From the NCBI GenBank assembly GCA_019429305.1, contig JAHYIR010000018.1, positions 1 through 40,509 of the forward strand: a stretch of 40,509 nt of DNA, written 5' to 3'. The notes below the pieces were generated by a model that was given only the letters and a program-made list of their open reading frames with translations, was not told the DNA's origin and made no database searches. How positions within the stretch are numbered: position 1 is the first letter of the stretch; the number at the start of each line of letters is the position of its first letter. Positions 39 to 34,142 of the stretch are shown piece after piece. Position numbers and translations under genes: made by a program. The stretch is from Candidatus Cloacimonadota bacterium. Lineage in GTDB: Bacteria > Cloacimonadota > Cloacimonadia > Cloacimonadales > JAJBBL01.

Positions 39-3000
39 ATGAAGCAGAGATATATTATAATGGTAGTCCTTATCGGGCTACTAGTCATATTATCGGTCAA
101 TTTATCTTATGCTCAATTTGCCGGAGGTGACGGTTCTGAAGAAAATCCCTATCTGGTTGAATCGGCAGAGCATCTTAATGAGGTAAGAAACTATCCAAAG
201 GATCATTTTAGGCAGATTACCGATATTGATTTAGGTGATTTTGCCCAGGGAGAAGGTTGGGAAACGATAAAAGAGTTCTTCGGTACATACTACGGTTCCG
301 GCTATTCAATAACAAATCTCAAGATCCATAGAACAACAACTGACAATGTCGGTTTGTTTGGTTCAGCAAATGAAGCTACAATAGGAGGAATAAAACTCAT
401 AGATGTTGAGATCTATGGTCGAGATAATGTAGGTAGTCTATTAGGATGGAACGAGAACAGTAATATAGAATTGAACTATGTATCCGGTTTTATTCATGGT
501 AGATCAAACACCGGCGGACTTGTGGGATATCAAAATAATGGATTACTCATAGAGAGTTCCTCTACATCACACGTAGAAGGGGCTCAGAACATTGGTGGTA
601 TTGTTGGATCATTGAACTATGGTGAAGTAAAGAACTGTTTTGCTTTAGGAACTATTCACGGAGAGAGATACATAGGTGGATTGATAGGGTCCTATGCTGC
701 AAATGGAATAGTATTTAACAGTTATGCTGCCGGTAGAGTATCCGGAGAAAGAGATACCGGCGGTCTAATTGGTTATGGAAACGGCACAGCCGTTAATAGT
801 TATTGGGATATGGAAATAACAGGACAAAGAAGGTCGGCAGGTGGTGAAGGAAGAAGAAAGCAAGAAATGACTTACCCCTACGATCCTGATACCTATGTAG
901 ATTGGGATTTTGTTTATAAATGGTTAGAAGATGAACATAATCTCAATGAAGATTACCCTTATCTTTTCAGAGCTCCGAGCGATATAATCCCATGGCCTTT
1001 ATTCTCAGGCGGTGATGGAACTGAAAACAATCCTTTCTTGGTAGAAAACGCTTTTCAATTAAATTGGATCAGACATCCTAATTTTTTAACAAAGAACTAT
1101 CGGCAGATAAGTGACATTGATTTAGGAGTTGCTCCATGGAATTTGAATGAGGGTTGGTTACCGATCGGAAATGCTCCCACCCCTTATGGATTTACCGGTT
1201 ATTACGATGGGAATGGATATAGCATCGTTAATTTGTTTATTGATCGTAATTCCGCTGATGTGAATTGGGATCAGTTAGGATTATTCGGATTCATTTATGA
1301 CTCAGCTTTTGTGCAAGGTCTAAATCTTGATAATGTTAATATCTCAGGAAGGAATTTTGTCGGTGGTCTTTCCGGTCTTATCCAACTATCGAATATTATA
1401 CATGTTAAAGTATCAGGGCATATTAAGGGTATATCGTGGGTAGGAGGAATTACCGGTGTAGCTGCTCACTGCTCAATAGAAAGCAACTATTGCTCTGCTC
1501 TAATCGAAAACATAGCCGGTAGTCCTGCTTTAAGAGGAGTTTCCGGCGGTTTGGTTGGCTTTAGCAGTTGGTCGGAATTTTCTAATAGTACAGCAACGGG
1601 AGATGTACTCTCTGTATTTGGGGGTTTAGTTGGCGGACTGATAGGAGAAGCGACTCATTCAAGTGTAATTGATTGTTCAGCTACCGGCGATATTACTTCC
1701 TCAAATCACTCTTTTGTGGGTGGAATTGTAGGTTATGCAGCCAGTATTAATATCACCAATAGTTTTGCTACCGGTAATATTGAGGGCAATGAAGCGGTTG
1801 GAGGATTAGCGGGGGAAATTGTAAGCAATTCCGTGATTAATCAGAGTTATGCTACCGGTACGGTAACAGGGGATTTTGCCGTTGGAGGATTAGCAGGATA
1901 CTCCGGTTTACCGGTACCATTTGCTCAACCCTGTTACATCGAAAATTCTTATGCCACAGGTGATGTACATGGCAATAGTCATGTTGGTGGTTTGGTCGGT
2001 TTTCATGGTCCAATAGGAAATGTCGAAAATTGCTATTCTATCGGACCAGTTAACCGCGGAGAAGCCGGTCACCATGTAGGTGGATTGATAGGTTATAATG
2101 CAGGTAATGTTGCCAATTGCTTCTGGGACAGAGTAACTTCAGGTCAAGAATACTCTGCTGCCGGTACCGGATTACTTACTGTTGATATGTTACCGTCTAA
2201 TGATATATACACTAATTGGAATTTTCAGAACATCTGGGATCTAAGAAACTATACAACCTATCCCTATTTGAGATGGCAAGCTGATCCTGCAGTTCAAAAC
2301 TATCCTCCTCATGGATATCATAAAGTCTTTCGTGATAGAATCTGGTATTGGGAATCTTTCCCGGTACTATGGGACCGTGATCAGGGAGGATATCAAGATG
2401 GTAGTATAGTACTTGATCCTCTAACTAATCACATGAATACCGTACTTGTTTATAACGAAGAATATGGAATAATGTTTTTTCATTATACTGATTGGCATAA
2501 TGTTTATGATTTTCATAGTACCAGAGGATATAAACTGGGTCTTATTGATCAAAATGAGTATAGTTTAATAGTCGAAGGAGACACCGGTACTCCGGAAAAC
2601 ATTGAATTCGACGCTGAAGTAGCTTTATATCCCCGTAGTATGCTCCCCGAAAACTTTATCGGCTATTTCATACCACAAACACAATGTGTCTTCGATGCCT
2701 TCTCTGAGATCATTGACGATTTGGTTATTATCCAATCGGAAGAATGGGGTTTATACCGTAACGAATTTGACCAATGGGAATATGATGTTAATATCGAACC
2801 GAAGGTTCTCTATGGCAAATTTTACGCTGTAACCCCTCGCGAAGATCTGACCGAAACCATATATTTTCAGTGGAATATTCCGACAGAACCAGAATATTGG
2901 GTGCCGCGTCCTAAACCTGAATTTTTTGTTTATACAGAGAAAGCCGCTTATGAATCGTTTTTCATAGAATATATCGAAGACGATGAAGATGTACTGGAGG

Positions 3001-3581
3001 TTGCCGTCTTTGCCGATGACGAATGTGTCGGTGCAACGGTCTTTCTTGGCGGTTATCCCTTCGAGATTCTCGCTTATACTGATGAATCGCATATCGGTGC
3101 TGAGATTAGTTTTGTCATTCATCGTAGCGGTCAGAGAAGCGAACCGGAGGTCATAAGAGTCGTTGATGCAAAGGATAATATCAGTGGTGAATACTCATTG
3201 CAGATTCTAAAACCTCTACGACAGAGATACACTGTAGTCAGGTTAGGAACAGGCGAATATGAACCGGAGACAGAGATCAAGCCGCTAATCATGTTGTCAC
3301 AAAACTATCCTAATCCCATTGTCTTTAAAACGGCAGACCGGTTCAACATAACCTCTATACCATTCTATGTCTCTCAAGACAGAGAAGTTACACTCAGTAT
3401 TTACAATATCAGGGGTCAACTTGTTAAGACACTCTATTCAGGTATTGTCATTGAAGGGAGACACTCTATCGGTTGGAATGGAATGAATGATCAGAATCGT
3501 ACGGTTGGTTCCGGTGTCTATTTCTACCGCTTGGAGAGCGGAGATACTGTCATCACCAGAAAGATGCTGATCATCAGGTAA
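39..3581 (+). CDS. Secreted GLUG-repeat surface protein with C-terminal sorting/FlgD-like domain
   Basis: A 1180-residue predicted exported protein. Residues 1-26 form a signal peptide (basic start, long hydrophobic run, SYAQ cleavage region). The body is made of two tandem modules: a head with GGDGxExNPxLVExAxxLNxxR near residues 28-48 and again near 323-343, each followed by many GLUG-type repeats (VGGLVGY, IGGIVGS, VGGLAGE and similar, alternating with SYATG/CFALG turns) and closed by an S/C-YWD/FWD...SG or TGQ segment. Such repeats are expected to form a beta-helix-like extracellular stalk. The last 90 or so residues contain QNYPNP, then an IYNIRGQLVKTL...GWNG...SGVYFYRL pattern and a basic end, as in type IX secretion or FlgD-like C-terminal domains. 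The start is supported by GGGAGGAAAAA just upstream of the ATG. Ligand and role are unknown; surface adhesion is an inference. Confidence 0.9.
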   Translation: MKQRYIIMVVLIGLLVILSVNLSYAQFAGGDGSEENPYLVESAEHLNEVRNYPKDHFRQITDIDLGDFAQGEGWETIKEFFGTYYGSGYSITNLKIHRTTTDNVGLFGSANEATIGGIKLIDVEIYGRDNVGSLLGWNENSNIELNYVSGFIHGRSNTGGLVGYQNNGLLIESSSTSHVEGAQNIGGIVGSLNYGEVKNCFALGTIHGERYIGGLIGSYAANGIVFNSYAAGRVSGERDTGGLIGYGNGTAVNSYWDMEITGQRRSAGGEGRRKQEMTYPYDPDTYVDWDFVYKWLEDEHNLNEDYPYLFRAPSDIIPWPLFSGGDGTENNPFLVENAFQLNWIRHPNFLTKNYRQISDIDLGVAPWNLNEGWLPIGNAPTPYGFTGYYDGNGYSIVNLFIDRNSADVNWDQLGLFGFIYDSAFVQGLNLDNVNISGRNFVGGLSGLIQLSNIIHVKVSGHIKGISWVGGITGVAAHCSIESNYCSALIENIAGSPALRGVSGGLVGFSSWSEFSNSTATGDVLSVFGGLVGGLIGEATHSSVIDCSATGDITSSNHSFVGGIVGYAASINITNSFATGNIEGNEAVGGLAGEIVSNSVINQSYATGTVTGDFAVGGLAGYSGLPVPFAQPCYIENSYATGDVHGNSHVGGLVGFHGPIGNVENCYSIGPVNRGEAGHHVGGLIGYNAGNVANCFWDRVTSGQEYSAAGTGLLTVDMLPSNDIYTNWNFQNIWDLRNYTTYPYLRWQADPAVQNYPPHGYHKVFRDRIWYWESFPVLWDRDQGGYQDGSIVLDPLTNHMNTVLVYNEEYGIMFFHYTDWHNVYDFHSTRGYKLGLIDQNEYSLIVEGDTGTPENIEFDAEVALYPRSMLPENFIGYFIPQTQCVFDAFSEIIDDLVIIQSEEWGLYRNEFDQWEYDVNIEPKVLYGKFYAVTPREDLTETIYFQWNIPTEPEYWVPRPKPEFFVYTEKAAYESFFIEYIEDDEDVLEVAVFADDECVGATVFLGGYPFEILAYTDESHIGAEISFVIHRSGQRSEPEVIRVVDAKDNISGEYSLQILKPLRQRYTVVRLGTGEYEPETEIKPLIMLSQNYPNPIVFKTADRFNITSIPFYVSQDREVTLSIYNIRGQLVKTLYSGIVIEGRHSIGWNGMNDQNRTVGSGVYFYRLESGDTVITRKMLIIR

Positions 3582-3918: not shown

Positions 3919-6321
3919 ATGAAATATTGGGTCTTTATTACTATTAACCTACTTATGCTATCAACTCTTCTTTCAGTGACCTGGGAGATCAAGCAAGACG
4001 GAACGGGAGACTTTACGACTATAGGAGCCGGTATTACTGTTGCTCAGGATGGTGATACACTCCTTGTCTATCCCGGTATCTATTATGAAAGGATCAACTA
4101 TCAGGGGAAGAATATTACCATCACCAGTCTCTATGACGGCGATGAATATGATGAGAGTTATATCGCTAATACAGTAATAGACGGCAACCATGAAGGTACT
4201 GTGGTGATATTCAATTCCGGAGAGACGAGAGATGCAATTCTTAACGGCTTTACTATCCGTCACGGAAAAGGAGAACCACATAGTGCACCCCATTTCCCTG
4301 GTCTAACGGTTGGTGGAGGAGTTTATATTTCTGAGGCTTCACCTATCATTAACAATTGTATCATTGAAAAAAACTATGCTCTTTCCGGTGGAGGTCTTAG
4401 TTTAATGAGAAATGGTCATCCCTTACTAAAGGGTAATACCATTAGATTTAACTCTTCAAGTGTTCATGCAGCCGGTATTTTAGCTTCCAGCTTGCCAACC
4501 GATTATTCTAACATAGAATTTTCTACTCAATCGATGAATAGCATATATCTTAACAGTGGTCTGTTCGGTAATGACTTATACTTCAGCAACTCTGAACAAT
4601 CTGCAGTCGTAATAGATACATTTACGGTTCTACACCCTGATGAATTTTTTATCAGATTTGGTATACATAGTGATCCAGAACTAAACATATCAATCAATAA
4701 TGGTAAGATAGATCCCATATCTGCTGACCTATTCGTTAATCCCTGTGGAAATGATACAAATAGCGGATTATCCCCTTATGAGCCCCTACAAACAATATCT
4801 CGGGCAATGGCAACAATTTTACCGGATAGTTTACAGCAACGGACTATTCATCTTGCAGAAGGAGTATACTCACCATCAATCAACAATCAATTATTCCCGG
4901 TGCAATTGAGAAAATATATATCACTGCAAGGAACTGGGAAAAATGTAACCATACTTGACGGTGAATTCAAAACCCTGTTATTAGGTGTACTAGGTTCAAG
5001 AGAACAAAATGATATACCTGTTGTTAGGAACTTTTCTGTAAAAAACGTGACATTGATAAATGGTGGAAACGAAATACATTATGTCGCTGCAGGAGGCATT
5101 ACTTTACAATTTACAGCAGATTTTATCTTTCATAACATTGATATAACTAATTGCCATACTGGCAATCCTAGCACTTTTCGTAGTATTAGCGCCGAGGGTA
5201 ACTATTCTCTTAAAAATATTCATATTTATGATAACACCGGAGGTACTAACGCATTGAATCTCAATCATTTACGTGATAGTTATAATTTTTATGCTGAGAA
5301 TATAAGGATAAGAAATCAACAACCTGGTCCATCTGATCTCGATATCGTCGGTTATGGTGGTGGGATGAGAGTTGCAATGCAAGGTTCTGAGTTTCAGCTC
5401 CCTTTAGTATCAGTAGGAACTATAGTAAATCTTGAAATTACTGACTGTTTCATTGACAATACCACTTCCGGTTTACCTTTCGGAAATCTCATGTTTATAA
5501 GACCTGGTTCTTTCAGGGTTATCAATGCAACTATCGGCAATAACCACTCTACTAATAATACCGGCGGTGGTCTATCTATTCTAGAAGAGGGAGTTCATGT
5601 AGAAGTTATCAACTCAATTATTTATGGTAATTTTCCTCATAACATAGCATTAAGAAATAACCATGAAATACCCAGCAGTCTAACGGTGTCACATTCTTTG
5701 GTAGGTGGTGGACTGGCTGGAATATATTACTCGGGTAATTTTGATGTTCATTGGGGTGAAGGTAACATCGATGCCGATCCTTTATGGCTGGAAGTGGTTG
5801 ATCCTGACTATGACGGCGATTATCATTATATGTTATCGGAACACTCTCCGGCAAGAAATGCCGGTACTCTCGATATACCGAACTTCGAGTTCCCTCTCTA
5901 TGATCTGGCAGGTAATCCTCGCATCTATGGTGATTCCATAGATATAGGTGCTTACGAATGGAACCCGGAAGCCAGTATAGATGATAACGATACTTATCAT
6001 GCTATCTCATTACATAATTACAATCTTCATAACTACCCTAATCCTGTTGTGAGCTTAAAGGGTATGGGTAGAGGAAAAGGTGTAGGCACCAATATCAGTT
6101 TTATTATGCCGAAAGAGGGACATGTCGTGATCGATATCTATAATGTCAAAGGACAGTTTATCAGAAGATTGATCAATGCTTATATGGTAGCAGGAGAGTA
6201 TAATTTCTTATGGAACGGCAAAGATGAGCAGGAGAGGATAGTTGCTACCGGATTCTACATGTATAGATTAGAGATAGACGGAGAAACAGTAGCTACCGGA
6301 AGATATACGTTTATTAAATGA
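3919..6321 (+). CDS. Secreted right-handed beta-helix protein with C-terminal sorting/FlgD-like domain
   Basis: An 800-residue predicted exported protein with an N-terminal signal peptide (about residues 1-19). The sequence right after it (DGTGDFTTIGAGITVAQDGD) is the usual entry to a pectin-lyase-like beta-helix, and the next 140 residues carry helix turns such as DGNHEGTVV, NGFTIRHG and GGGVYISEASP. A second helix start appears around residue 272 (VNPCGNDTNSG...PLQTISRAM), resembling DUF1565-type proteins. Near 615-690 a 'DPLW...SPARNAG...DLAGNPRIYGDSIDIGAYEW' pattern matches the choice-of-anchor Q type of end module. The C-terminus has NYPNP followed by IDIYNVKGQFIRRL...FLWNGKDE...GFYMYRL, the same sorting-type tail as in the upstream gene. 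GGAG lies five bases before the ATG. No catalytic residues could be assigned; enzyme activity is not claimed. Confidence 0.88.
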   Translation: MKYWVFITINLLMLSTLLSVTWEIKQDGTGDFTTIGAGITVAQDGDTLLVYPGIYYERINYQGKNITITSLYDGDEYDESYIANTVIDGNHEGTVVIFNSGETRDAILNGFTIRHGKGEPHSAPHFPGLTVGGGVYISEASPIINNCIIEKNYALSGGGLSLMRNGHPLLKGNTIRFNSSSVHAAGILASSLPTDYSNIEFSTQSMNSIYLNSGLFGNDLYFSNSEQSAVVIDTFTVLHPDEFFIRFGIHSDPELNISINNGKIDPISADLFVNPCGNDTNSGLSPYEPLQTISRAMATILPDSLQQRTIHLAEGVYSPSINNQLFPVQLRKYISLQGTGKNVTILDGEFKTLLLGVLGSREQNDIPVVRNFSVKNVTLINGGNEIHYVAAGGITLQFTADFIFHNIDITNCHTGNPSTFRSISAEGNYSLKNIHIYDNTGGTNALNLNHLRDSYNFYAENIRIRNQQPGPSDLDIVGYGGGMRVAMQGSEFQLPLVSVGTIVNLEITDCFIDNTTSGLPFGNLMFIRPGSFRVINATIGNNHSTNNTGGGLSILEEGVHVEVINSIIYGNFPHNIALRNNHEIPSSLTVSHSLVGGGLAGIYYSGNFDVHWGEGNIDADPLWLEVVDPDYDGDYHYMLSEHSPARNAGTLDIPNFEFPLYDLAGNPRIYGDSIDIGAYEWNPEASIDDNDTYHAISLHNYNLHNYPNPVVSLKGMGRGKGVGTNISFIMPKEGHVVIDIYNVKGQFIRRLINAYMVAGEYNFLWNGKDEQERIVATGFYMYRLEIDGETVATGRYTFIK

Positions 6322-23842: not shown

Positions 23843-25444
23843 TTAATCAAAGAATGTTGGTCTTGTTTCCGTTATCAGCTGACCCAATAATTGTTTTCTG
23901 GTAGTTATATCCCTAGTTACAGATGGCTCGGAAGTTCTTGCTCCTGCAGAATCAAGATACTGATCAGCTCTATTAAATAATTGATTTGCTTCATTACGAG
24001 CATTGTCTCTTTCACTTATTAGTCTATCTGCTTCGGCGCCATAAGCAGTTCTTGCTTGTTCTTCCAGAGTCAGAAATGTCTCATACTTGCTATAACCCCT
24101 AATCTGATAAATCTGAGAAAGCAACATATATGGCTCATACACATTAGGATTTAGAGAGATCGCCTTATTGGCATCATTCTCTGCCTGATTTAGATTATTC
24201 ATAGCAATTTTCACATCTGCTAATCTGATATATACTGTTGGATTATTCTCTTCAAAAGCTAACAGTTGATTGAGAGTTTGTAATGCTTCTTGATTTCTTT
24301 CTAAGGTTCTATAAGACCCGGCAAGGTTAAGATAGGCAGTAGTATTTTGTGGGTCTCTTTCAATCTGATTACGATAATTGACAATAGCATTATCAAGCTG
24401 ACCTGTTCTTAAATAAGCAGCTGTTAACTTACGATTTATCAAATCATCTTCAGGATATCTCTCTGAGATAAATTCTAAGTGTGAAATTGATTCCCTGAAG
24501 TAGTTATTGTCAAATTGCAGAACACCGAGTCGGTAATGGGCACGTTCAAATTCCGGATTTAATTCTAAAGCTTCTTCAAAAGCTTCTATTGCTTCATATA
24601 TGAAGTTCATTTCAGCATATATATTGCCTATTCTGAACCAAACCATTTCATCCGGTTTGATTTCTGCCAATCTCCTTAATGTCACTATTGCATCTTCATA
24701 TTTACGAGAGAGACGTTGAGTTTCGGCTAGATTATTCAATATCCTTTCATCTTCGGGATTTAGTTCCAGTCCACGTTGATAGTAATACTCAGAATTTTCA
24801 TAATCATTAATCATGAATTTGATATATCCAAGATAGAAGAAGGCATCTATATTAGTTGGATCGATGTTAACTATTCTCATAAAGGTATCTCTTGCACCGG
24901 TATAATTATTGGTGCTCAACTGTTGTTCACCAATATTAAACAGTCTGATTAGCTCACCACCGGCTAATTCTCCGATCTTATCGATCAACTCTGTCTTTAA
25001 TCCTTGTTGTCTATCAGCACTTCTCTTTCTCAAATTAAAGGTTAACTGACTGATACTGCTAGATCTAACATTCATGACATTAGCTAGGACCCTTATTTCA
25101 GTTGCTGACAAGTCAGATATTGTTCCCCAAATAAGGATATCGGCACCAAGCTCTTGACCAATGACACCAGCTTGTGTACTAGTTATATTCTTAATGCTTG
25201 ATAAACCTAAATTAGACACTAATCTACTCGCCTGATTTTGATCTATCAACTCAAATTGTGGATAGTCCCTTAAAATAACAGTAAAATCACCTCTTCTGGC
25301 ATCCATCATCTGATTAGCCACAGTACGAACAGCTCTCTCTTGTGGCTCAAAATCCAATACAGCTACTTTTTGTACATTTGCATTTAACAAAGTGCTACTG
25401 AATATCAGCAACACTATACTGATTACCATTAATTTCATTCTCAT
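23843..25444 (-). CDS. Exported CsgG-like/TPR repeat protein
   Basis: A 533-residue protein with a signal peptide (VISIVLLIFSSTLLNAN). Residues about 20-150 resemble the CsgG/LpoB-type fold (KVAVLDFEP...FELIDQNQASRLVSNLG...IGQELGADILIWGTIS), a module found in outer-membrane assembly factors. From about 170 to 450 there are eight or so TPR units (for example DAFFYLGYIKFMINDYENSEYYYQRGLELNPE, given here only as type, with NP ends), suggesting a protein-binding scaffold. The C-terminus is Arg/Asn-rich coiled sequence. There is no lipobox Cys. The start at 25444 has GGAGGAG immediately upstream; an ATG 51 bp earlier is weaker. The gene lies downstream of two GWxTD genes and ends at a strong terminator. 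Exact function is unknown. Confidence 0.8.
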   Translation of the reverse strand: MRMKLMVISIVLLIFSSTLLNANVQKVAVLDFEPQERAVRTVANQMMDARRGDFTVILRDYPQFELIDQNQASRLVSNLGLSSIKNITSTQAGVIGQELGADILIWGTISDLSATEIRVLANVMNVRSSSISQLTFNLRKRSADRQQGLKTELIDKIGELAGGELIRLFNIGEQQLSTNNYTGARDTFMRIVNIDPTNIDAFFYLGYIKFMINDYENSEYYYQRGLELNPEDERILNNLAETQRLSRKYEDAIVTLRRLAEIKPDEMVWFRIGNIYAEMNFIYEAIEAFEEALELNPEFERAHYRLGVLQFDNNYFRESISHLEFISERYPEDDLINRKLTAAYLRTGQLDNAIVNYRNQIERDPQNTTAYLNLAGSYRTLERNQEALQTLNQLLAFEENNPTVYIRLADVKIAMNNLNQAENDANKAISLNPNVYEPYMLLSQIYQIRGYSKYETFLTLEEQARTAYGAEADRLISERDNARNEANQLFNRADQYLDSAGARTSEPSVTRDITTRKQLLGQLITETRPTFFD

Positions 25445-25612
25445 ATACTCCTCCACTATACCTTCTTCGCTTAGTCGAGTAGATTCCTGCTCCATTTAGT
25501 TACTAAACGCTTTTATTTATAATTATTACATATAAAATAATACCAAAGCACCTTACAACCAACAAAAAATGGTTCTCTGCATGGTAATTTTCTCTGTTTT
25601 AATTCAAACCGG

Positions 25613-26986
25613 TTACTCTAGTTTACTCATATCGAAATCTTCACCAAGAAATCTTGTCCAATTGCTTGCCGTATGTTCCATGTCATCATTTCTACTATAT
25701 ATAAGTCGAAAGTTACCATTCCCTTGAATATCTATGAAGAGATATATCATATTGAGATCTCTATACCTCCAAATCTGATATTCTTTTCTCGTTAACCGTG
25801 TATCAACATCAGTAATATTCTTTTCTGTCTCAGTTGGTTCACCATTTCTGATGTAAATTCTTCCCATATCTGTTTCCCAGCCATCTCGAAAATGCGAGTA
25901 ATGTTGATTTGCATAGTTAACCCTTTCTCTTACTGTTTCAATAAACTCATTTCTTTCAGACTGAGGATTTGGATCATTCAGTGTCCAGAATCTATCAATA
26001 AAGTTTCTTTTTGCCTCATTGCTCATATTATCCCAATTACGAAATCTGGAAGAGGGTAAAAAATAACGAATTAGCTGTTGTTCCTTTTCCAGATCTGCAA
26101 ATAGACTCTGAGTTGTAAAAATCCTTTCGCTGACCACGAAATAGTCAGAAACCATGCTTTGTCTATTAGTTACTCTGTCTAAAACACTAACTTCAATGTT
26201 ATAATATCCCAACCCTAAGGTATCTGCCGGAATTTGATGTATCATGTCAAAAGTAGTACCTTGACCTCTAATGTTGTTCGTTATTGTTGAGTCATACAAT
26301 TCATTAAAAATTCTAATTGTTTCTGTAATATAAGTAAATTGATCAACTGCAGGAAAAAGATTCTGAATCTCATAATAGAAGAAGATCGTATCTTGGTGTG
26401 CTCTCTCATAAATATGCAACGGATCGACATAGAACTGATAATCACCTCTGCGAAATTTTTCAAAACCCTGACTAGGAGGTTCTTTAACGATTCTTGATGA
26501 AAACTCCAGATCACTGATCATGCTATCAGATGAAAGATTCTCTAACACATTTGACCATTGAAAATGGTAATCTGTCAATCTGTCTTTAAAATCCAGAAGG
26601 AAATTGATGCCCGATTGTTCTTGAGATAGAGTCAGTTCAATTTTATCCAGATAATATTGTGTTCTGGAAAAAGTAGTTTCCCTATCTCTTACTCCAATAT
26701 AATGAGCAAATTCGTTCAAGACAGTGCTATTTCCATCTTCATCTTCCACACTGATCGTCACATCAACTGTTGCTAAAAATCCTTCATCTATTTCTACAAA
26801 AGCTATCTGATTGTATGGTATTTTGTAGTTAAAATGATACACAGTATTACCATGCTCATCTAAAAATCGATTTTGATCAATATGCATCTCAATGGTCTCT
26901 GCTCCGATTAGAAACGGGAACAAGATCAGTGAGATAATTATAAAGGGTTTAATCCATCCATTTGTCTTTAAGTTCATAATTTCCAT
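25613..26986 (-). CDS. GWxTD domain-containing protein (second of pair)
   Basis: A 457-residue predicted exported protein with an N-terminal hydrophobic segment (PFIIISLILFPFLIGAE). The N-terminal two thirds are beta-rich and lack a recognised domain. The C-terminal 130 residues hold the GWxTD module: FIDRFWTLNDPNP...ERVNYANQHYSHFRDGWETDMGRIYIRNGEP, then YQIWRYRDLNMIYLFID...GNGNFRLIYS. GWxTD proteins occur in FCB and Acidobacteria-type genomes and have no established activity. The first ATG (26986) overlaps the preceding gene by 38 bp; an ATG three codons later (26977) is equally plausible because AGAGG lies between poor and long spacing for the two. Probably translationally coupled. Confidence 0.82.
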   Translation of the reverse strand: MEIMNLKTNGWIKPFIIISLILFPFLIGAETIEMHIDQNRFLDEHGNTVYHFNYKIPYNQIAFVEIDEGFLATVDVTISVEDEDGNSTVLNEFAHYIGVRDRETTFSRTQYYLDKIELTLSQEQSGINFLLDFKDRLTDYHFQWSNVLENLSSDSMISDLEFSSRIVKEPPSQGFEKFRRGDYQFYVDPLHIYERAHQDTIFFYYEIQNLFPAVDQFTYITETIRIFNELYDSTITNNIRGQGTTFDMIHQIPADTLGLGYYNIEVSVLDRVTNRQSMVSDYFVVSERIFTTQSLFADLEKEQQLIRYFLPSSRFRNWDNMSNEAKRNFIDRFWTLNDPNPQSERNEFIETVRERVNYANQHYSHFRDGWETDMGRIYIRNGEPTETEKNITDVDTRLTRKEYQIWRYRDLNMIYLFIDIQGNGNFRLIYSRNDDMEHTASNWTRFLGEDFDMSKLE

Positions 26987-28091
26987 ATCCTCTTAAATCA
27001 TAGAAGATAAAAACTCTGTTAAGACTGTAGTAATACCATGTTATACTCGGCTCTCTTCCAATGGGAAAGACATCAGATACTATTTGATCCGGTTCCCCAT
27101 ACATGATATAGATTCTTCCCCTGTCTGTACGCCAGCCCGGTAGATATCTCCTGATTTCATAATTATTATCAGCGTAACGAACACGTTGATAAAAAGTTTC
27201 TTGATAAACATTCTCGGGAGTATAAGGATCAGGATCCATACTCCTCCAATAATCGTTAATAGCATTCTGTAGCAGATTTTCCGGCAATGATCTGAAGTAC
27301 TGATATTCATTTTGATTTATAATATAACGCAATTGAGCCAACTGGTCCCTGGGATTATATTTTTGCTGATAGAAATAGGCAACATTGGGGTAAATGGGGA
27401 AACTAATGTACTTCCTCTCACCATTATAGTTTTCTACTTCTAAACTAACCTCAGTTTCATGATCCAACAATTCATGTAATTCTTCTATGTCCCCTACAAT
27501 TATCTGATCTTCACTATCTTTGATGTTAATTACAATTCTTGTTGAGTCTGGTTGAAAAGTAAGATGTTGCAGCATTTGGATTGAGTCGTACTTACTTAGT
27601 AAGTATCTTTGATCCTTAATAATAAAAGCAAATTCATCGATTCTCACTTTAAAGAAAAGAAATCCAACTGTTTTAGAAGTATTTGGAAATATGAACGATT
27701 CTCTCAGCTCTTTCTTTCGCCCTGAAGCGTTATCCAAAATACTTATATAGAGTTGATACTCTCCCGGTTCTAGTTCCATCTCAAACTGTAATGGATAATA
27801 TTCCTTAGTGTAACTTATAGGCAGTAGATTATCCAATACCTCTGGTTTTAAGGTAAATTTCAGCATAGTCTGAGTTTGATAATTGATCTGTTCTTCGTCA
27901 GTATAGATAATGATAGATATACTGTTATCATAATTTATCTCTCTACCACTCACCTGAAAAAACAGATCACTATATGGGATTAGGATCATGTTCTTCGCAT
28001 AATTATCTATATGTTCAGAAATGAATTCCAACGCGGATAACAAAGCCGGCGAGATCAATAAGAGAAGGAATATCAGTTTAAAAACTTTCAT
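26949..28091 (-). CDS. GWxTD domain-containing protein (first of pair)
   Basis: A 380-residue predicted exported protein with a signal peptide (LIFLLLLISPALLSALE). It shares the layout of the downstream gene: a beta-rich region, then AINDYWRSMDPDP, RVRYADNNYEIRRYLPGWRTDRGRIYIMYGEPDQI with the GWRTD motif near residue 320, and a short closing block WYYYSLNRVFIFYDLRGYGNYEL. The two neighbours therefore look like divergent duplicates. Its start overlaps the end of dnaE by 14 bp, placing it in the dnaE transcript. The C-terminus is truncated relative to its sister (it stops soon after the ELKDKW segment). Function unknown. Confidence 0.82.
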   Translation of the reverse strand: MKVFKLIFLLLLISPALLSALEFISEHIDNYAKNMILIPYSDLFFQVSGREINYDNSISIIIYTDEEQINYQTQTMLKFTLKPEVLDNLLPISYTKEYYPLQFEMELEPGEYQLYISILDNASGRKKELRESFIFPNTSKTVGFLFFKVRIDEFAFIIKDQRYLLSKYDSIQMLQHLTFQPDSTRIVINIKDSEDQIIVGDIEELHELLDHETEVSLEVENYNGERKYISFPIYPNVAYFYQQKYNPRDQLAQLRYIINQNEYQYFRSLPENLLQNAINDYWRSMDPDPYTPENVYQETFYQRVRYADNNYEIRRYLPGWRTDRGRIYIMYGEPDQIVSDVFPIGREPSITWYYYSLNRVFIFYDLRGYGNYELKDKWMD

Positions 28092-31000
28092 TTATCCGTA
28101 CATTAACCTTAGCTTGATCATTAAACAGCTCTTTTACCCTCGAATTGAATTTTGAGCCCGGGAAAAAACTGTACTTCTGAGGTGTGATCTGCAAATAGTC
28201 ATACTTTGAGGTCTTAACGTTAAGGTTGATATAAAATTTTCCCGGTGACTCACGAGCTATATCTTCTAATGCCCCTATCATATCATGATTGAGTAATTCC
28301 TGCTTAATATCCATTGTAATTTCACCTTTGAAGTATTTTGCCAGTTCGTCAAAGCAGAGAATTTTATCGGGATAGATTCGTAGTATTGATGTATCAAAGT
28401 TATTTCCCACACCACGATAATCATTAGTTTTTCCAATAATGAGATATTTTCTTCCCTCATTCATGAGAGGTTCAAATTTTGCCACACTGCGATTAGGGAT
28501 TGCAACTTCAAATCTACCATATTGGTCTTCCATGACCATCACATATGGTACTTTGTTTCTATTATCTTTCCTTTTAATAATCTCGCTTACAACTCCGGCA
28601 ATTAATATCCTTTCTTTAGTATTAACTGCTCTCCTTTCCGAATATTTCTTTGTATTCATATTAGTAAAATATTCAATCTCTGTCTGGTATTTAAAAAGAG
28701 GGTGTCCGGAGAAATAGAATCCGAGTACCAGTTTTTCTTTTTCCAATTTCTCGGTCAAAGTCCACTCGTTTCTTTGCGGTAACATAGGTTTACAACCATT
28801 GGGAACAGATCCATCATCATCATCATCTTCCAGAATTGTGAATAGAGTTTGTTGTCCCCTCTTGCGTTCACTGCTGACACTATTGCCGTATTCAATAGCA
28901 CAATCAAGCCCTGCTGTTTTTTCCGAACGATTCCCTTCCAACTCATCAAGTGCTCCGGCATATATTAAACTCTCTATCACAGCCCTGTTGACAGCAGTAA
29001 GGTCTATCCGTGAGCAGAATTCGAATAAATCTTGGAAATTGCCATTTTCCTCACGTTCTTCAATTATCTTCTGGATAGCTACATCGCCGACATTTTTAAT
29101 CCCTCTTAAACCAAAGAGTATTTTATCTCCTTGCACAGTAAAATCTTTTAGGCAGAGATTTATATTGGGAGGGATAACCTCTATTCCCATATTTTTACAC
29201 TCTTCTAAGAAATAAGGGATTTTAGCCGGATCATTCTCCAGAGATAAGATAGCAGCCATAAATTCAATCGGATAATGACTTTTCAAGAAAGCTGTTTGAA
29301 AGGCAACATAGGCATAGCAAACTGAATGGCTCTTATTAAAGGCATATTTGGCAAATTCTATACACTTATCCCAGATCTTTGCTATTGTCTCTTCCGGAAC
29401 CCCTTTATCTTGAGCACCTTTAAAATACTTAGATTTTAGTTGGTGCATAACTTCCATATTCTTTTTTCCCATAGACTTGCGAAGAGTATCTGCCTCTCCT
29501 CCCGTAAAACCAGCCATTTCTCTGGAAATCTGCATTACCTGTTCCTGATAGACTATAACTCCATAGGTCTCTTTCAGTACTTTCTCTATGAGTGAATGAT
29601 CATAATTTACCTCTTCCTGCCCGTTTTTACGTCTGATGTAGGAATCGATATATTGCATCGGACCAGGTCGGTAAAGTGCTACCATCGCTACTAGATCAGA
29701 AAAAACATTTGGTTTGAGGTCTTTTAAGTATTTTTTCATTCCGGCAGATTCAAATTGAAATATGCCGTCTGTCTGACCTTTGGAAAACAATTTATACGTT
29801 TTACTGTCTGTCAGATCGACATTATCAATATCAAGTTCAATCCCTTGTGATTCCTTTATCAACTTTAAAGTTCTCTTAATAATCGTTAATGTTTTCAACC
29901 CTAAAATATCCATTTTCATCATCTTCAGAAAACTAAGCCATTTTCCTTCATACTGGACTAAAACAGCCGGTGGTCCTACTTTTTGATTACTGATAGCTAA
30001 TGGAACATAATTAGAGAGATCGTCCGGTCCGATAACTACACCCGCAGCATGGATCCCATGTTGCCGAATCAAACCCTCTAACACCAAGCCATATTTGATA
30101 ATCGATGAATAGAGGGGATTGTTATCCATTAACTCCCTGAATTCGGAATAATCTTCCAGACACTTTTCCAGGGTAATTTTGGGAATATTCGGCATCAGCT
30201 TAGTTATCTTATTCGCTTCAGCAGCAGGGATTTCCAAAACTCTAGCTACATCCTTGATGACTGACTTAGCCGCCAAGGTATTAAATGTAATTATTTGCGA
30301 GACACTGTTTCTTCCATACATTCTGATAACATAATCGATGATTTTGTTTCTCCCCTCAGCGCAAAAGTCGATATCAATATCAGGCATCTCGATACGGTCA
30401 GGATTAAGAAATCTTTCAAAGAATAGATTATGTGGCAAAGGATCTATTTTCGTAATACCTAATAGATAAGAAACTATACTACCTGCAGCAGAACCTCTAC
30501 CCGGTCCAACAGGAATATCATTTGCTCTGGCTGCATCAACAATGTCCTTAACTACCAGAAAATAGTTTTCGTAACCAAGATTATTAATGACCTGCAACTC
30601 ATACTCTAACCTTTCTTTAATCTCATTAGTAACTTGCGGATACAAAATAGGTAGGTTATCAAAACACAACTTCCTCAGATATGTTGTGTTATCGTTATAT
30701 TCTTGTGGAAGCCGGCATTTAGGAATCAGAAAAGATTGATAGTTTAGTGTGAAATCGATCTGCTCTGCTATCTTTATTGTGTTCTCGTAAGCCGCCGGTT
30801 CGTTGGGAAATAATCCTCGCATCTCCTCTTCTGTTTTGAAGTATAGTTGATCAGTTTCATACTTCAACCGGTTAGTGTCTTTTTGTGTTTTGGCAGTCTG
30901 AATACAAAGCAGAATGTCGTGGGCTTCAGCATCCTCTTTTTGTAAATAGTGACAGTCGTTGGTTACAACAAGCGGTGTATCAGTTCTTTTTGCCAAGTCA

Positions 31001-31563
31001 CATAAATCCGGAATGACTATCTTTTCCTCTTCCAGGCCATGATCCATTATCTCAATATAGAACCTGTCTGGGAAAATTTCTTTGTAAAAATCAACAACCT
31101 TTTCTGCTTCTTTTGTTCTCTTTTCTAATAATAATGACGGAATTTCCCCTTTAAGACAGGCAGATAAACATATCAACCCTTCTGAATACTCTCTCAGAAG
31201 ATTTTTGCTAATTCTCGGTTTGTAATAAAATCCCTCAAGATAGGATCGCGATGATAGTTTAATCAGATTTTGATAGCCAACACTGTTTTGTACAAGAAGA
31301 ATCAGATGATGTCGTCGATCATTCTTTGCTGCCGGACTATCCAGATCATTATTGATTATATATGCTTCGATCCCAATGATTGGTTTAACACCATTTTGCA
31401 GAGCAGTCTCGTAAAAATCTATTGCCCCTGCCATCGTACCATGATCAGTGATAGCTACAGCGGGCATTCCATATTGCTTAGTCAGATTGATTATTTTGTC
31501 AGTCCGGCAAGCACCGTCCAAAGCGCTGTATTGAGTATGATTATGTAAGTGAATAAACCCCAT
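28078..31563 (-). CDS. dnaE: DNA polymerase III alpha subunit
   Basis: A 1161-residue replicative polymerase of the DnaE1 type. The N-terminal PHP domain retains the metal-site motifs (HLHNHTQYS, TDHGTM, RRHHLIL, NDCHYL...AHD), so it is not obviously inactivated as in E. coli. The palm has GPGRGSAAGSIVSY and PDIDIDF (near residue 400) with the catalytic Asp residues, the fingers have NKSHSVCYAYVAFQTAFLK, and an OB-fold region is seen near 980-1060 (ILIAGVVSEIIKRKD...YGRFEVAIPN). Length fits the family. The ATG at 31563 has AGG at good distance; a TTG two codons upstream (31569) is less likely. The end overlaps the first GWxTD gene by 14 bp. Confidence 0.95.
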   Translation of the reverse strand: MGFIHLHNHTQYSALDGACRTDKIINLTKQYGMPAVAITDHGTMAGAIDFYETALQNGVKPIIGIEAYIINNDLDSPAAKNDRRHHLILLVQNSVGYQNLIKLSSRSYLEGFYYKPRISKNLLREYSEGLICLSACLKGEIPSLLLEKRTKEAEKVVDFYKEIFPDRFYIEIMDHGLEEEKIVIPDLCDLAKRTDTPLVVTNDCHYLQKEDAEAHDILLCIQTAKTQKDTNRLKYETDQLYFKTEEEMRGLFPNEPAAYENTIKIAEQIDFTLNYQSFLIPKCRLPQEYNDNTTYLRKLCFDNLPILYPQVTNEIKERLEYELQVINNLGYENYFLVVKDIVDAARANDIPVGPGRGSAAGSIVSYLLGITKIDPLPHNLFFERFLNPDRIEMPDIDIDFCAEGRNKIIDYVIRMYGRNSVSQIITFNTLAAKSVIKDVARVLEIPAAEANKITKLMPNIPKITLEKCLEDYSEFRELMDNNPLYSSIIKYGLVLEGLIRQHGIHAAGVVIGPDDLSNYVPLAISNQKVGPPAVLVQYEGKWLSFLKMMKMDILGLKTLTIIKRTLKLIKESQGIELDIDNVDLTDSKTYKLFSKGQTDGIFQFESAGMKKYLKDLKPNVFSDLVAMVALYRPGPMQYIDSYIRRKNGQEEVNYDHSLIEKVLKETYGVIVYQEQVMQISREMAGFTGGEADTLRKSMGKKNMEVMHQLKSKYFKGAQDKGVPEETIAKIWDKCIEFAKYAFNKSHSVCYAYVAFQTAFLKSHYPIEFMAAILSLENDPAKIPYFLEECKNMGIEVIPPNINLCLKDFTVQGDKILFGLRGIKNVGDVAIQKIIEEREENGNFQDLFEFCSRIDLTAVNRAVIESLIYAGALDELEGNRSEKTAGLDCAIEYGNSVSSERKRGQQTLFTILEDDDDDGSVPNGCKPMLPQRNEWTLTEKLEKEKLVLGFYFSGHPLFKYQTEIEYFTNMNTKKYSERRAVNTKERILIAGVVSEIIKRKDNRNKVPYVMVMEDQYGRFEVAIPNRSVAKFEPLMNEGRKYLIIGKTNDYRGVGNNFDTSILRIYPDKILCFDELAKYFKGEITMDIKQELLNHDMIGALEDIARESPGKFYINLNVKTSKYDYLQITPQKYSFFPGSKFNSRVKELFNDQAKVNVRINESF

Positions 31564-31663: not shown

Positions 31664-31785
31664 AAGTTAATCCATAAAATCTTTGATATTCTTCGTAACC
31701 CCGATTGGCAAGAGATTTTGTTGTAATCAATACGACAAAAAATTAATAACTCGTATCAAATGTGCTGCTTTAAGTTAGTTAAAAA

Positions 31786-31804
31786 GGGCGACCACCGGTC
31801 GCCC
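31786..31804. repeat. GGGCGACC hairpin repeat
   Basis: Perfect 8-bp arms with a 3-base loop, followed by CCTACA. This 'GGGCGACC...GGTCGCCCCTACA' wording resembles a short palindromic repeat that recurs in unrelated bacterial genomes (recollection, not searched). Confidence 0.65.
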
Positions 31805-31892
31805 CTACAATGTATTTATCTGTTTTATTCTTACTTTTCCGTTTACTCCGCGCTCTTTTTCCCCTCGCTAAACTTCAGTAGGTTTTTTCTCC

Positions 31893-32037: not shown

Positions 32038-33579
32038 CTACATACTTTTCCCAATATGCCCTTTACCAACACCCTTGACCTTACATCCAAGCTGTAAATA
32101 CTGTCCTATCTTCTTATCGGTCAAGAAATTGGAACAATCAATGATCAATGGCTTTTTACCTGATAACTTTACAATTTCAGTCGGATTATACTCTATGTAT
32201 TCATTGTGCCCGACTGCGAAAATTATTACATCTGCTTCTCTTAAAGCTTTCTTTTTATCACTGAGTACTGGAATGTTCTCCATTTCAGCCCAATAATCAA
32301 CATAAGGATCATGTACTTTTGCAATAGCCCAAGACTCATTGAGAATTCTCACTAATGTCTCTGATGGAGAATGTCGGGTGTCTCCTAATTCTTCCAAATA
32401 TGATACACCCAAGACACATACGACGACATCTTCTAGCTGTGGAAACTCTTCTTTTATCAATTCAATTGTGTGTAAAGGCATAGTATCATTAATATTCACC
32501 GAATTAATAGCCATTTTCAAGGAACTGTTGAGATTAAAAATTGCATTCATAGCCCAGTTAGCAAGTACAGGATCCTTTGTCAGGCAATACCCGCCTACCC
32601 CTAAACTCGGTCTCAGCAGATTATCGTGTGTTCCCTTTCTTTTTCTGATCGCTTCTCTAACCTTGAAAATATCTACTCCGATTTTCTCAGCAAATTTTGC
32701 CCATTCCAATGTGAGAGCAATGTTGGTAGCCCGATATGAATTTTCCATCACCTTTGCCAACTCAGAGGCATTAGTATTCTCCAACTCTGTTAACGGGAAA
32801 TTTTTCGTATCTAAAACCCGATTTAGAAACTCTTTCGCCAATTCCTTACTCTTCTCGTTTACGCCAGAATAGACTCGCCAGAAGTTTCTGATCGACTTAA
32901 CATAGTTTGCCCCCGGCATTACTCTTTCATAAGAATGAGCTATCAACGGCGGGTTCTTTTTAATATTTATCCCTCTTTTAATAAATTCTTCTTCTATGAT
33001 CGGTTTTACAACTTTCTCACAAGTTCCCGGTGGAACTGTTGTTTCCACCAATATCATACATTCCGGTTGGATATGTTTACCGAGCGTTCGCATTCCATCA
33101 CGAAAAGCTGATAGGTCACAGTACCCTCTCTCTGCTTCTCCAAAAGCCGGTTTAGTTGCATCGAGTTGAATATCTACAACAACTATATCGGCAACTTCAA
33201 AGGCATAATTCAACCAGGTTGCCCGGAAACTTTTCTTCTTTACAACAGTCCTCTTGAATATCTCCGGAACCTCATCATCGGATGATTTAACAGGCGAAAC
33301 ACCACTGTTTATTACCGGCACTTTCCAATAAGATCTGGCAGAAGCTCTCTGCTGACCATGAACGAAAAACAACGGTTCTCCTTTTTCATTTTCCGCATCT
33401 GCTATTACAGTTGCCATCATACAACCAACAAAACCCATACCCTGTACTGCAACTATTTTTCTTCCTAACTGTTTCTGCTCCTGAGTGATCTTTTCCAGCA
33501 ATTTCCTCTCTTTTTGAGAATCCTTTTCAGTGGGGAGCACATATTCCTTCCCATCCGGTGCTAAAGAGATATTCTTCAT
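32038..33579 (-). CDS. Nucleotide-sugar dehydrogenase (UDP-glucose/GDP-mannose dehydrogenase family)
   Basis: A 513-residue NAD-dependent enzyme that would oxidise a nucleotide sugar to its uronic acid for surface polysaccharide. The Rossmann motif is QGMGFVGCMMATVIA near residues 46-60. The central helix has ELAKVMENSYRATNIAL and the catalytic Cys lies in GVGGYCLTKDP near residue 330. The C-terminal domain has VCVLGVSYLEELGDTRHSPS and VHDPYV. It is longer than typical UGD or WecC (about 430) because of an N-terminal extension of about 40 residues and an insertion near 70-110 (SYWKVPVINSG...VKSSDDEV). The start has GGAAGG upstream. The exact sugar cannot be told from sequence. Confidence 0.87.
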   Translation of the reverse strand: MKNISLAPDGKEYVLPTEKDSQKERKLLEKITQEQKQLGRKIVAVQGMGFVGCMMATVIADAENEKGEPLFFVHGQQRASARSYWKVPVINSGVSPVKSSDDEVPEIFKRTVVKKKSFRATWLNYAFEVADIVVVDIQLDATKPAFGEAERGYCDLSAFRDGMRTLGKHIQPECMILVETTVPPGTCEKVVKPIIEEEFIKRGINIKKNPPLIAHSYERVMPGANYVKSIRNFWRVYSGVNEKSKELAKEFLNRVLDTKNFPLTELENTNASELAKVMENSYRATNIALTLEWAKFAEKIGVDIFKVREAIRKRKGTHDNLLRPSLGVGGYCLTKDPVLANWAMNAIFNLNSSLKMAINSVNINDTMPLHTIELIKEEFPQLEDVVVCVLGVSYLEELGDTRHSPSETLVRILNESWAIAKVHDPYVDYWAEMENIPVLSDKKKALREADVIIFAVGHNEYIEYNPTEIVKLSGKKPLIIDCSNFLTDKKIGQYLQLGCKVKGVGKGHIGKSM

Positions 33580-34142
33580 ACTTAACCTTCCTTTTCTTGA
33601 ATTAATTGGAAAAAATTAGACCCTGTAGAATTGGCAAGGAAAAGTTGACTTCTAAACTCAATCCGGGAAGAAAAGAAAAATTGTGCATCCCACAGAAGCA
33701 AAGCAGGCCTCACCCACGGATGCACACAGATAACTGCTTTTTAACCGTTTGATCTATTTTTTACGGTTAAATCAGTGTTCTACACTCTTCCTGCTATACT
33801 CCCTTTGGGTTTTCATTAGTAACTAATCGCTGGTAATTATAACCATTTATTACTTGCTTAACTCCAATAGCACCCTGAAGGAGTGCCATCTGATAGCCTG
33901 CGACTTCAGTCGCAGGTATTGGTCACAGACCAATTTGGGTGGCGGGCGGGTATAGATCATCTTTATTCCAGACATTGAAATGTCTGGCTATCTTATTTCA
34001 TACCCCTCCGGGGCATTTATTCCCTTCTTGCTACTCTTCCAATGGAATTGCTACCCTTTATTCCAATGATTTTCATTGACTGTCTTACCCTCGAAAATTT
34101 TATGTTTTTTTATTATCAATGACACTTTAAATGGAGGAATAA
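33580..34142. other. Intergenic repeat region upstream of metK
   Basis: No credible gene and no recognisable SAM riboswitch. It holds a reverse-oriented fragment of the decamer module (CCACGGATGCACACAG near 33716), a degenerate CTAGTAG-like heptad stretch (TTAGTAA CTAATCG CTGGTAA, about 33807-33830), a cluster of four hairpins at 33897-34013, and a CCAATGGAATTGCT module near 34039. The metK ribosome binding site GGAGG closes the region. Confidence 0.72.
33897..34013. repeat. Cluster of four small hairpins
   Basis: Four perfect inverted repeats in 117 bp: CCTGCGACT/AGTCGCAGG (33897-33916), TTGGTC/GACCAA (33919-33933), CCAGACATT/AATGTCTGG (33968-33987) and CCCC/GGGG (34003-34013), with GGGTGGCGGGCGGG between the second and third. 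A related stretch with GACCAATATTGGATGGTGGGTGGG is at about 37293-37318. It resembles REP-like clusters, but no RAYT transposase is visible. Confidence 0.7.

Follow-up and report, generated by a model that had tools for sequence, protein, structure and literature searches.

The type IX secretion system (T9SS) of Bacteroidota comprises SprA/Sov, PorV, PorZ and SprE/PorW together with the GldLM motor, and Bacteroidota form, with Fibrobacterota, Chlorobiota and their kin, the FCB group. Proteins of the GWxTD family (TIGR04514, PF20094), in turn, have no assigned function to our knowledge. Here we analyze two GWxTD genes, called A and B below, that lie directly behind the replicative polymerase gene dnaE on a contig of 40,509 nucleotides from a Candidatus Cloacimonadota bacterium (JAHYIR010000018.1, assembly GCA_019429305.1; the whole contig is referred to as the window). 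In the excerpted text of PMC10994853, the translocon consists of SprA, PorV, SprE, SkpA and PorD, with SprE, PorD and SkpA as its periplasmic parts, and that of PMC11285876 lists Cloacimonadota among the phyla that may have a T9SS; a T9SS review also appears in the excerpted reference list of PMC8542988. The word GWxTD was found in neither of the first two papers, and the literature searched held no relevant paper on GWxTD, the GWxTD domain, TIGR04514 or a dnaE operon in Cloacimon*, nor any account of a division of GWxTD proteins into A and B, of the tail of B, of their operon with dnaE or of their association with SprA.

Compared with the described T9SS, genomes with GWxTD genes are alike in holding SprA and PorV, in the cargo-like C-terminal domains encoded in the window and in fusions of tetratricopeptide repeats (TPRs) to GWxTD domains, whereas they differ in that GldM was found in no GWxTD genome and in that GWxTD genes do not adjoin sprA. 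We favor, tentatively and with somewhat less than even confidence, the reading that A and B are an exported pair that would interact and serve a SprA/PorV-type (T9SS-like) secretion pathway. This proposal builds on the gene order and overlaps, the predicted domain layout of B, the recurrence of A and B in several phyla and their co-occurrence with SprA and PorV, the last of which an earlier reading of the window from its letters and open reading frames (ORFs; hereafter the sequence-only reading) could not see.

The GWxTD gene pair in the window

The genes run head to tail on the minus strand, in the order dnaE, GWxTD-1 (A), GWxTD-2 (B) and a TPR gene, to which we return below:

28078-31563, minus strand: dnaE, the leading gene of the run, for the alpha subunit of the replicative DNA polymerase III; DnaE models above cut-off, with PHP, NTPase, finger and HHH domains
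28078-28091, minus strand: overlap of 14 bp between the dnaE stop and the GWxTD-1 start
26949-28091, minus strand: GWxTD-1 (type A); TIGR04514 99.2 bits; hydrophobic leader read from the sequence
26949-26986, minus strand: overlap of 38 bp between the end of GWxTD-1 and the start of GWxTD-2 (29 bp if GWxTD-2 begins at the ATG at 26977)
25613-26986, or from the ATG at 26977, minus strand: GWxTD-2 (type B); TIGR04514 91.1 bits; hydrophobic leader

Both proteins thus belong to the GWxTD family: their TIGR04514 scores stand against a cut-off of 28, PF20094 gives 53.5 and 52.4 bits for A and B (cut-off 26.9), and the eponymous motif reads GWRTD and GWETD in the two proteins. The gene order, coordinates and overlaps given in the sequence-only reading, as well as its strong terminator behind the run, all proved correct. 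An Rfam scan returned no RNA element within the run, the GWxTD proteins had no match in PHROGs, and promoter scans were uninformative (44 sites versus 39 +/- 6 expected).

Co-occurrence with SprA and PorV

The co-occurrence sample held 146 genomes, 74 from Cloacimonadota and 72 others with 72 different family codes, and a genome was scored as GWxTD-positive at E<=1e-15. Outside Cloacimonadota, SprA was present in 15/16 GWxTD-positive versus 3/56 GWxTD-negative genomes (Fisher p 1e-11, ancestry not being controlled) and PorV in 14/16 versus 9/56 (Fisher p 2e-7), while the control LptD gave 6/16 versus 17/56 (Fisher p 0.76). Within the phylum, SprA (74/74), PorV (73/74) and GWxTD (72/74) are close to universal, and the LptD model, a poor marker there, matched 0/74 genomes. 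GldM was detected in a single genome of the 146 (G130), which has no GWxTD gene; in the phylum of G130, GWxTD occurs in 117/198 genomes, a count that comes without SprA data and was not used as a test.

The window itself also encodes candidate substrates. Two ORFs on the plus strand (39-3581 and 3919-6321) specify large GLUG/beta-helix proteins ending in FlgD_ig, and the first also matches Por_Secre_tail below the Pfam cut-off; from these termini, type IX-like cargo is therefore likely to be encoded in this genome.

Taken at face value, the widespread GWxTD proteins track SprA and not the general outer-membrane marker LptD, and the family occurs almost only in SprA-channel bacteria among those sampled (the 15/16 above, outside Cloacimonadota). 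This association gives GWxTD proteins a first testable job and makes A and B concrete candidates for the missing periplasmic secretion parts in phyla in which no type IX motor protein was detected, for which the pair also offers a simple genomic marker.

Recurrence and ancestry of the A/B pair

The sequence-only reading had suggested that the two GWxTD proteins may act as a pair, and by their distribution they do look like a real pair. Neighboring genes in the order A, then B, are found again in Zixibacteria, WOR-3 and other groups, with another GWxTD gene making up 12/61 of the same-strand upstream neighbors within 200 bp outside Cloacimonadota (4/78 GWxTD genes, namely L157 twice, L159 and L164, were dropped as near-duplicates before neighbors were counted). 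Among the 12 genomes without a tandem pair, an A-like gene occurs together with a B-like one in seven (G079, G115, G121, G122, G123, G141 and G146), and in the pairs of L133 and L168 a small ORF lies between A and B.

Phylogenetic trees separate the two types. In a tree of 78 proteins, the downstream genes of all 26 pairs fall into one clade (Shimodaira-Hasegawa-like approximate likelihood ratio test 99) and all upstream genes outside it, and in a tree of 58 proteins, which omits all 19 single genes and the long-branched A protein of L030 (absent from the domain tree as well), the A/B split is supported at 99/98. The division is mirrored by a C-terminal tail with an E...W pattern, which was defined after viewing the sequences and matches 30/33 B versus 0/26 A proteins. 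Of the three B proteins missed, those of L039 and L156 have the tail by eye, and that of L036 has a tail lacking the E. Among single genes, the pattern also fits the A-side L084 and misses the B-clade members L135 and L164, both with a tail by eye. An ancient A/B duplication is thus the likely history favored by the unconstrained trees.

The dnaE linkage

Within Cloacimonadota, dnaE has a GWxTD gene behind it in 71/75 sampled genomes, made up of 56/58 with both genes on the same strand and 15/17 further genomes in which positions were read by eye. The remaining four were not scorable: in G037 and G068 the 3' end of dnaE lies <=100 bases from a contig end, in G064 the dnaE match ends before the end of the model, and in G028 neither a full dnaE nor a GWxTD gene was found. 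The spacing is nearly constant in most genomes, with a 256-aa ORF intervening in G012 and longer gaps in G038 and G054. Counted from longest-ORF starts, dnaE and the GWxTD gene are spaced by -110 to +22 bases at 28/29 named Cloacimonadota-type loci and overlap at 20, and the two GWxTD genes overlap in 24/26 pairs, a count that includes the near-duplicates L139 and L157 (one pair twice). What stays constant is the gene of type B (~445 aa); that of type A (~375 aa) separates dnaE from B in families f1, f2, f4-f10 and f12. Downstream of B there is usually a convergent gene, presumably YraN, followed by a barrel-like gene without a Pfam match and then by TPR-type genes. Two labels blur the phylum boundary: L138, labeled Cloacimonadota, was counted outside the phylum because it has an A-B pair without adjoining dnaE and branches near WOR-3, and L094 and L097 are labeled Armatimonadetes and have the gene arrangement of Cloacimonadota or the B-YraN portion of it.

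Such near-perfect keeping of an order behind dnaE throughout one phylum is unusual in itself. In L078, L080 and L135, moreover, the gene immediately before B encodes SMC, and in L073 A is preceded by a gene for a recombinase of the phage-integrase family (XerC/D-type). Together with these neighbors, the kept order could be taken to mean that A and B are tied to replication or chromosome handling, their dosage or timing being coupled to the replisome through dnaE. However, dnaE lies beside GWxTD in 0/16 GWxTD-bearing genomes of other phyla, and the leaders imply export of the proteins, so that this explanation is highly improbable, and we rejected a replication function for the pair on the first of these grounds. 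The same 0/16 argues that the dnaE link is probably transcriptional only, as the sequence-only reading had supposed, while its further idea that GWxTD dosage is tied to replication was not borne out. The best reading of the linkage is a frozen operon, kept phylum-wide, which would set co-transcription and carry no replication function. In one Bacteroidetes metagenome-assembled genome (L170:1407-9375), a GWxTD gene comes ~3 kb after dnaE, beyond three intervening ORFs, by chance or as a relic of the linkage.

Further GWxTD genes were seen away from dnaE. Genomes of family f3 often hold an extra GWxTD protein of ~200 aa elsewhere, and for the short ~200-aa Cloacimonadota proteins of L123, L124, L127, L128, L130 and L132 (the last cut at 173) the B profile scores higher in 6/6; the gene in L123, which was scanned, adjoins LemA/TPM-type genes. 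In family f9, the closest relative (L035:6844-7992) has genes for an encapsulated-ferritin-like protein and an encapsulin directly after GWxTD-2.

Predicted structures

Structure models place the following domains along the two proteins, residue numbers for B being counted from the ATG at 26977:

GWxTD-1 (A), model: leader; immunoglobulin (Ig)-like domain at ~19-140; poorly modeled beta region at ~140-235; GWxTD domain at ~237-380; no C-terminal tail
GWxTD-2 (B), model: leader; Ig-like domains at 27-150 and 150-285; GWxTD domain at ~290-430; conserved E...W tail

The model of B is confident (predicted local distance difference test, pLDDT, 92.7; predicted template modeling score, pTM, 0.76) and gives the GWxTD domain a mixed alpha/beta fold, and that of A has a poor middle (pLDDT 78.3, pTM 0.52). 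Foldseek and VIA matches fall essentially on the Ig-like domains, and profile searches against solved structures returned weak matches only. For B, the structural matches include RbmA (Z 10.9 over 105 residues, 3.1 A), factor XIII (Z 10.8 over 101 residues, 2.6 A) and, across both Ig-like domains, alpha-2-macroglobulin 7o7p_A (Z 10.1 over 192 residues, 3.4 A), with which many unrelated Ig folds tie; the best match of A (Z 7.9 over 94 residues, 3.0 A) is within background. The tandem Ig/macroglobulin (MG) domains of alpha-2-macroglobulin and the fibronectin type III (FnIII) pair of RbmA thus resemble the two-domain layout of B residues 26-284, but this fold is generic and the GWxTD domain of B lies outside the matched stretches.

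If A and B do serve a SprA/PorV-type pathway, Sec would export both proteins, and their Ig-like domains may then hold cargo, PorV or one another, with the GWxTD domain as a putative binding module and the B tail as a possible extra contact. The two would act together in the envelope as periplasmic helpers in FCB-group bacteria without the known GldM motor. It is tempting to speculate further that there is a second kind of T9SS outside the classical Bacteroidota, without a motor or differently powered, in which SprA and PorV-type shuttles would work with an ancient Ig-GWxTD A/B pair in place of the GldLM/PorKN periplasmic module and of which GWxTD would be the marker, although we consider this extension unlikely.

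Gene neighbors outside Cloacimonadota and competing explanations

Outside Cloacimonadota, the genes next to GWxTD are varied. Among the 49 upstream neighbors that are not GWxTD genes themselves, the families are MacB (8), RimO/MiaB-type radical SAM (6), SMC (3), PorV (2) and PorZ-like (2); the 42 downstream neighbors include ABC_tran (5), lipid A acyltransferase (3), LD-carboxypeptidase (3), NlpC/P60 (2) and SLT (2). By profile scores, and by the tree for L135 and L146, GWxTD genes linked to RimO are A-like and those linked to SMC are B-like. A PorV-family gene lies directly upstream of B in G134 and, below the Pfam cut-off, in L144, and a PorZ-like propeller gene precedes A in L077. The proteins look exported, as predicted from their leaders, and their neighbors elsewhere are often envelope genes, in keeping with the envelope location proposed in the sequence-only reading.

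The most frequent upstream family raises the possibility that A and B instead work in the periplasm with an ABC exporter of the MacB/Lol type, helping to move a lipid, lipoprotein or peptide. In L152, A and then B follow immediately on genes for an HlyD-type adaptor, the ATPase of an ABC transporter and two permeases of the MacB type, and MacAB-type operons adjoin A-B pairs in Zixibacteria-type genomes; the ABC_tran genes downstream point the same way. Most contexts, however, including the Cloacimonadota maps (in which ORFs are partly annotated), show no such transporter beside the pair, and we regard this explanation as improbable.

The downstream families, with their lipid A acyltransferases, LD-carboxypeptidases and NlpC/P60 and SLT proteins, would also fit a general role in the outer envelope, as scaffold or as assembly factor for peptidoglycan, lipopolysaccharide or outer-membrane proteins, in which case the match with SprA would reflect old genes shared across the FCB group. 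The generic Ig-like folds agree with such a role, as does the lack of any GWxTD gene beside sprA in the 10 loci inspected. A scaffold of this kind is less easily reconciled with the strong SprA association when LptD, poor marker though it is in Cloacimonadota, shows none, and we hold it to be rather doubtful.

Returning to the favored assignment to a SprA/PorV-type pathway, several observations weigh against it. The varied contexts described above, with their MacB permeases, RimO/MiaB-type and SMC genes, suggest other partners, and a GWxTD gene was found near sprA in 0/10 sprA loci. The co-occurrence has exceptions on both sides: G104 has GWxTD without SprA or PorV and G129 has GWxTD without PorV, while G097, G135 and G136 have SprA without GWxTD at the threshold used. 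Shared FCB ancestry could, moreover, produce the GWxTD-SprA co-occurrence. G130 has GldM yet no SprA match, a sign that the SprA model misses some cases. In families f3 and f11, no A gene lies behind dnaE, so A would be dispensable there. Finally, the ancient duplication is held as favored only, because approximately unbiased (AU) tests do not reject a Cloacimonadota-only clade (p-AU 0.466, and 0.256 on the GWxTD domain alone); on this domain alone, the A/B split also appears in just 37% of bootstrap trees and two WOR-3-type A proteins shift to the B side.

The TPR gene and further features

The run in the window ends with two further features:

23843-25495, minus strand: exported-looking TPR protein, with a likelier start at the ATG at 25444 before a hydrophobic leader; outside the conserved unit
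23801-23769, minus strand: intrinsic terminator hairpin closing the run; -23.1 kcal/mol, z -7.3, as stable in 0/200 shuffles

From its likelier start, the TPR gene begins ~170 bp after GWxTD-2. Of the label CsgG-like/TPR that the sequence-only reading gave its product, the TPR half is certain; for the N-terminal 165 residues, DUF3280 and LpoB matched below the cut-offs, as did FlgO in an orthologue, and CsgG was not among the matches listed at E<=5, so that the CsgG-like half is weak.

The same reading had the TPR protein act as a scaffold with the GWxTD pair and looked to relatives for the gene order. There, dnaE-GWxTD is kept and the TPR gene is not: its orthologue is present in 54/58 Cloacimonadota genomes, but elsewhere in the chromosome, and the two genes adjoin in 0/20 GWxTD loci and 0/16 TPR-gene loci of other genomes. 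We thus dropped the TPR gene as a third member of the unit, as it is conserved but adjoins GWxTD only here. Around the TPR gene, the 16 other loci hold no true dnaE, GWxTD, exbB, exbD or tonB gene, and the exbB-exbD-tonB genes downstream in the window were likewise dropped as members. Marginal matches near the TPR gene are a PHP-like DnaE relative, seen in both L177 and L181, and in L192 a weak match to GWxTD-2 (25% identity, 324 aa) at a distance of ~3 kb. Other phyla encode TPR-GWxTD fusion proteins of 650-790 aa (GWxTD proteins of this length are found in L193-L196, L198, L199, L202, L207 and L209-L212), with the TPRs before the GWxTD domain in 6/6 scanned; a TPR partner of some kind is therefore possible.

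Two minor features lie on the minus strand upstream of the run. At 31785-31810, the gap ahead of dnaE holds a GC-rich, repeat-like hairpin sequence followed by a T-run; the core of this sequence occurs once in the window. An Acido-Lenti-1 RNA, scoring 39.3 bits against a cut-off of 37, was matched at 33871-33916, in the gap ahead of the gene at 32038-33579.

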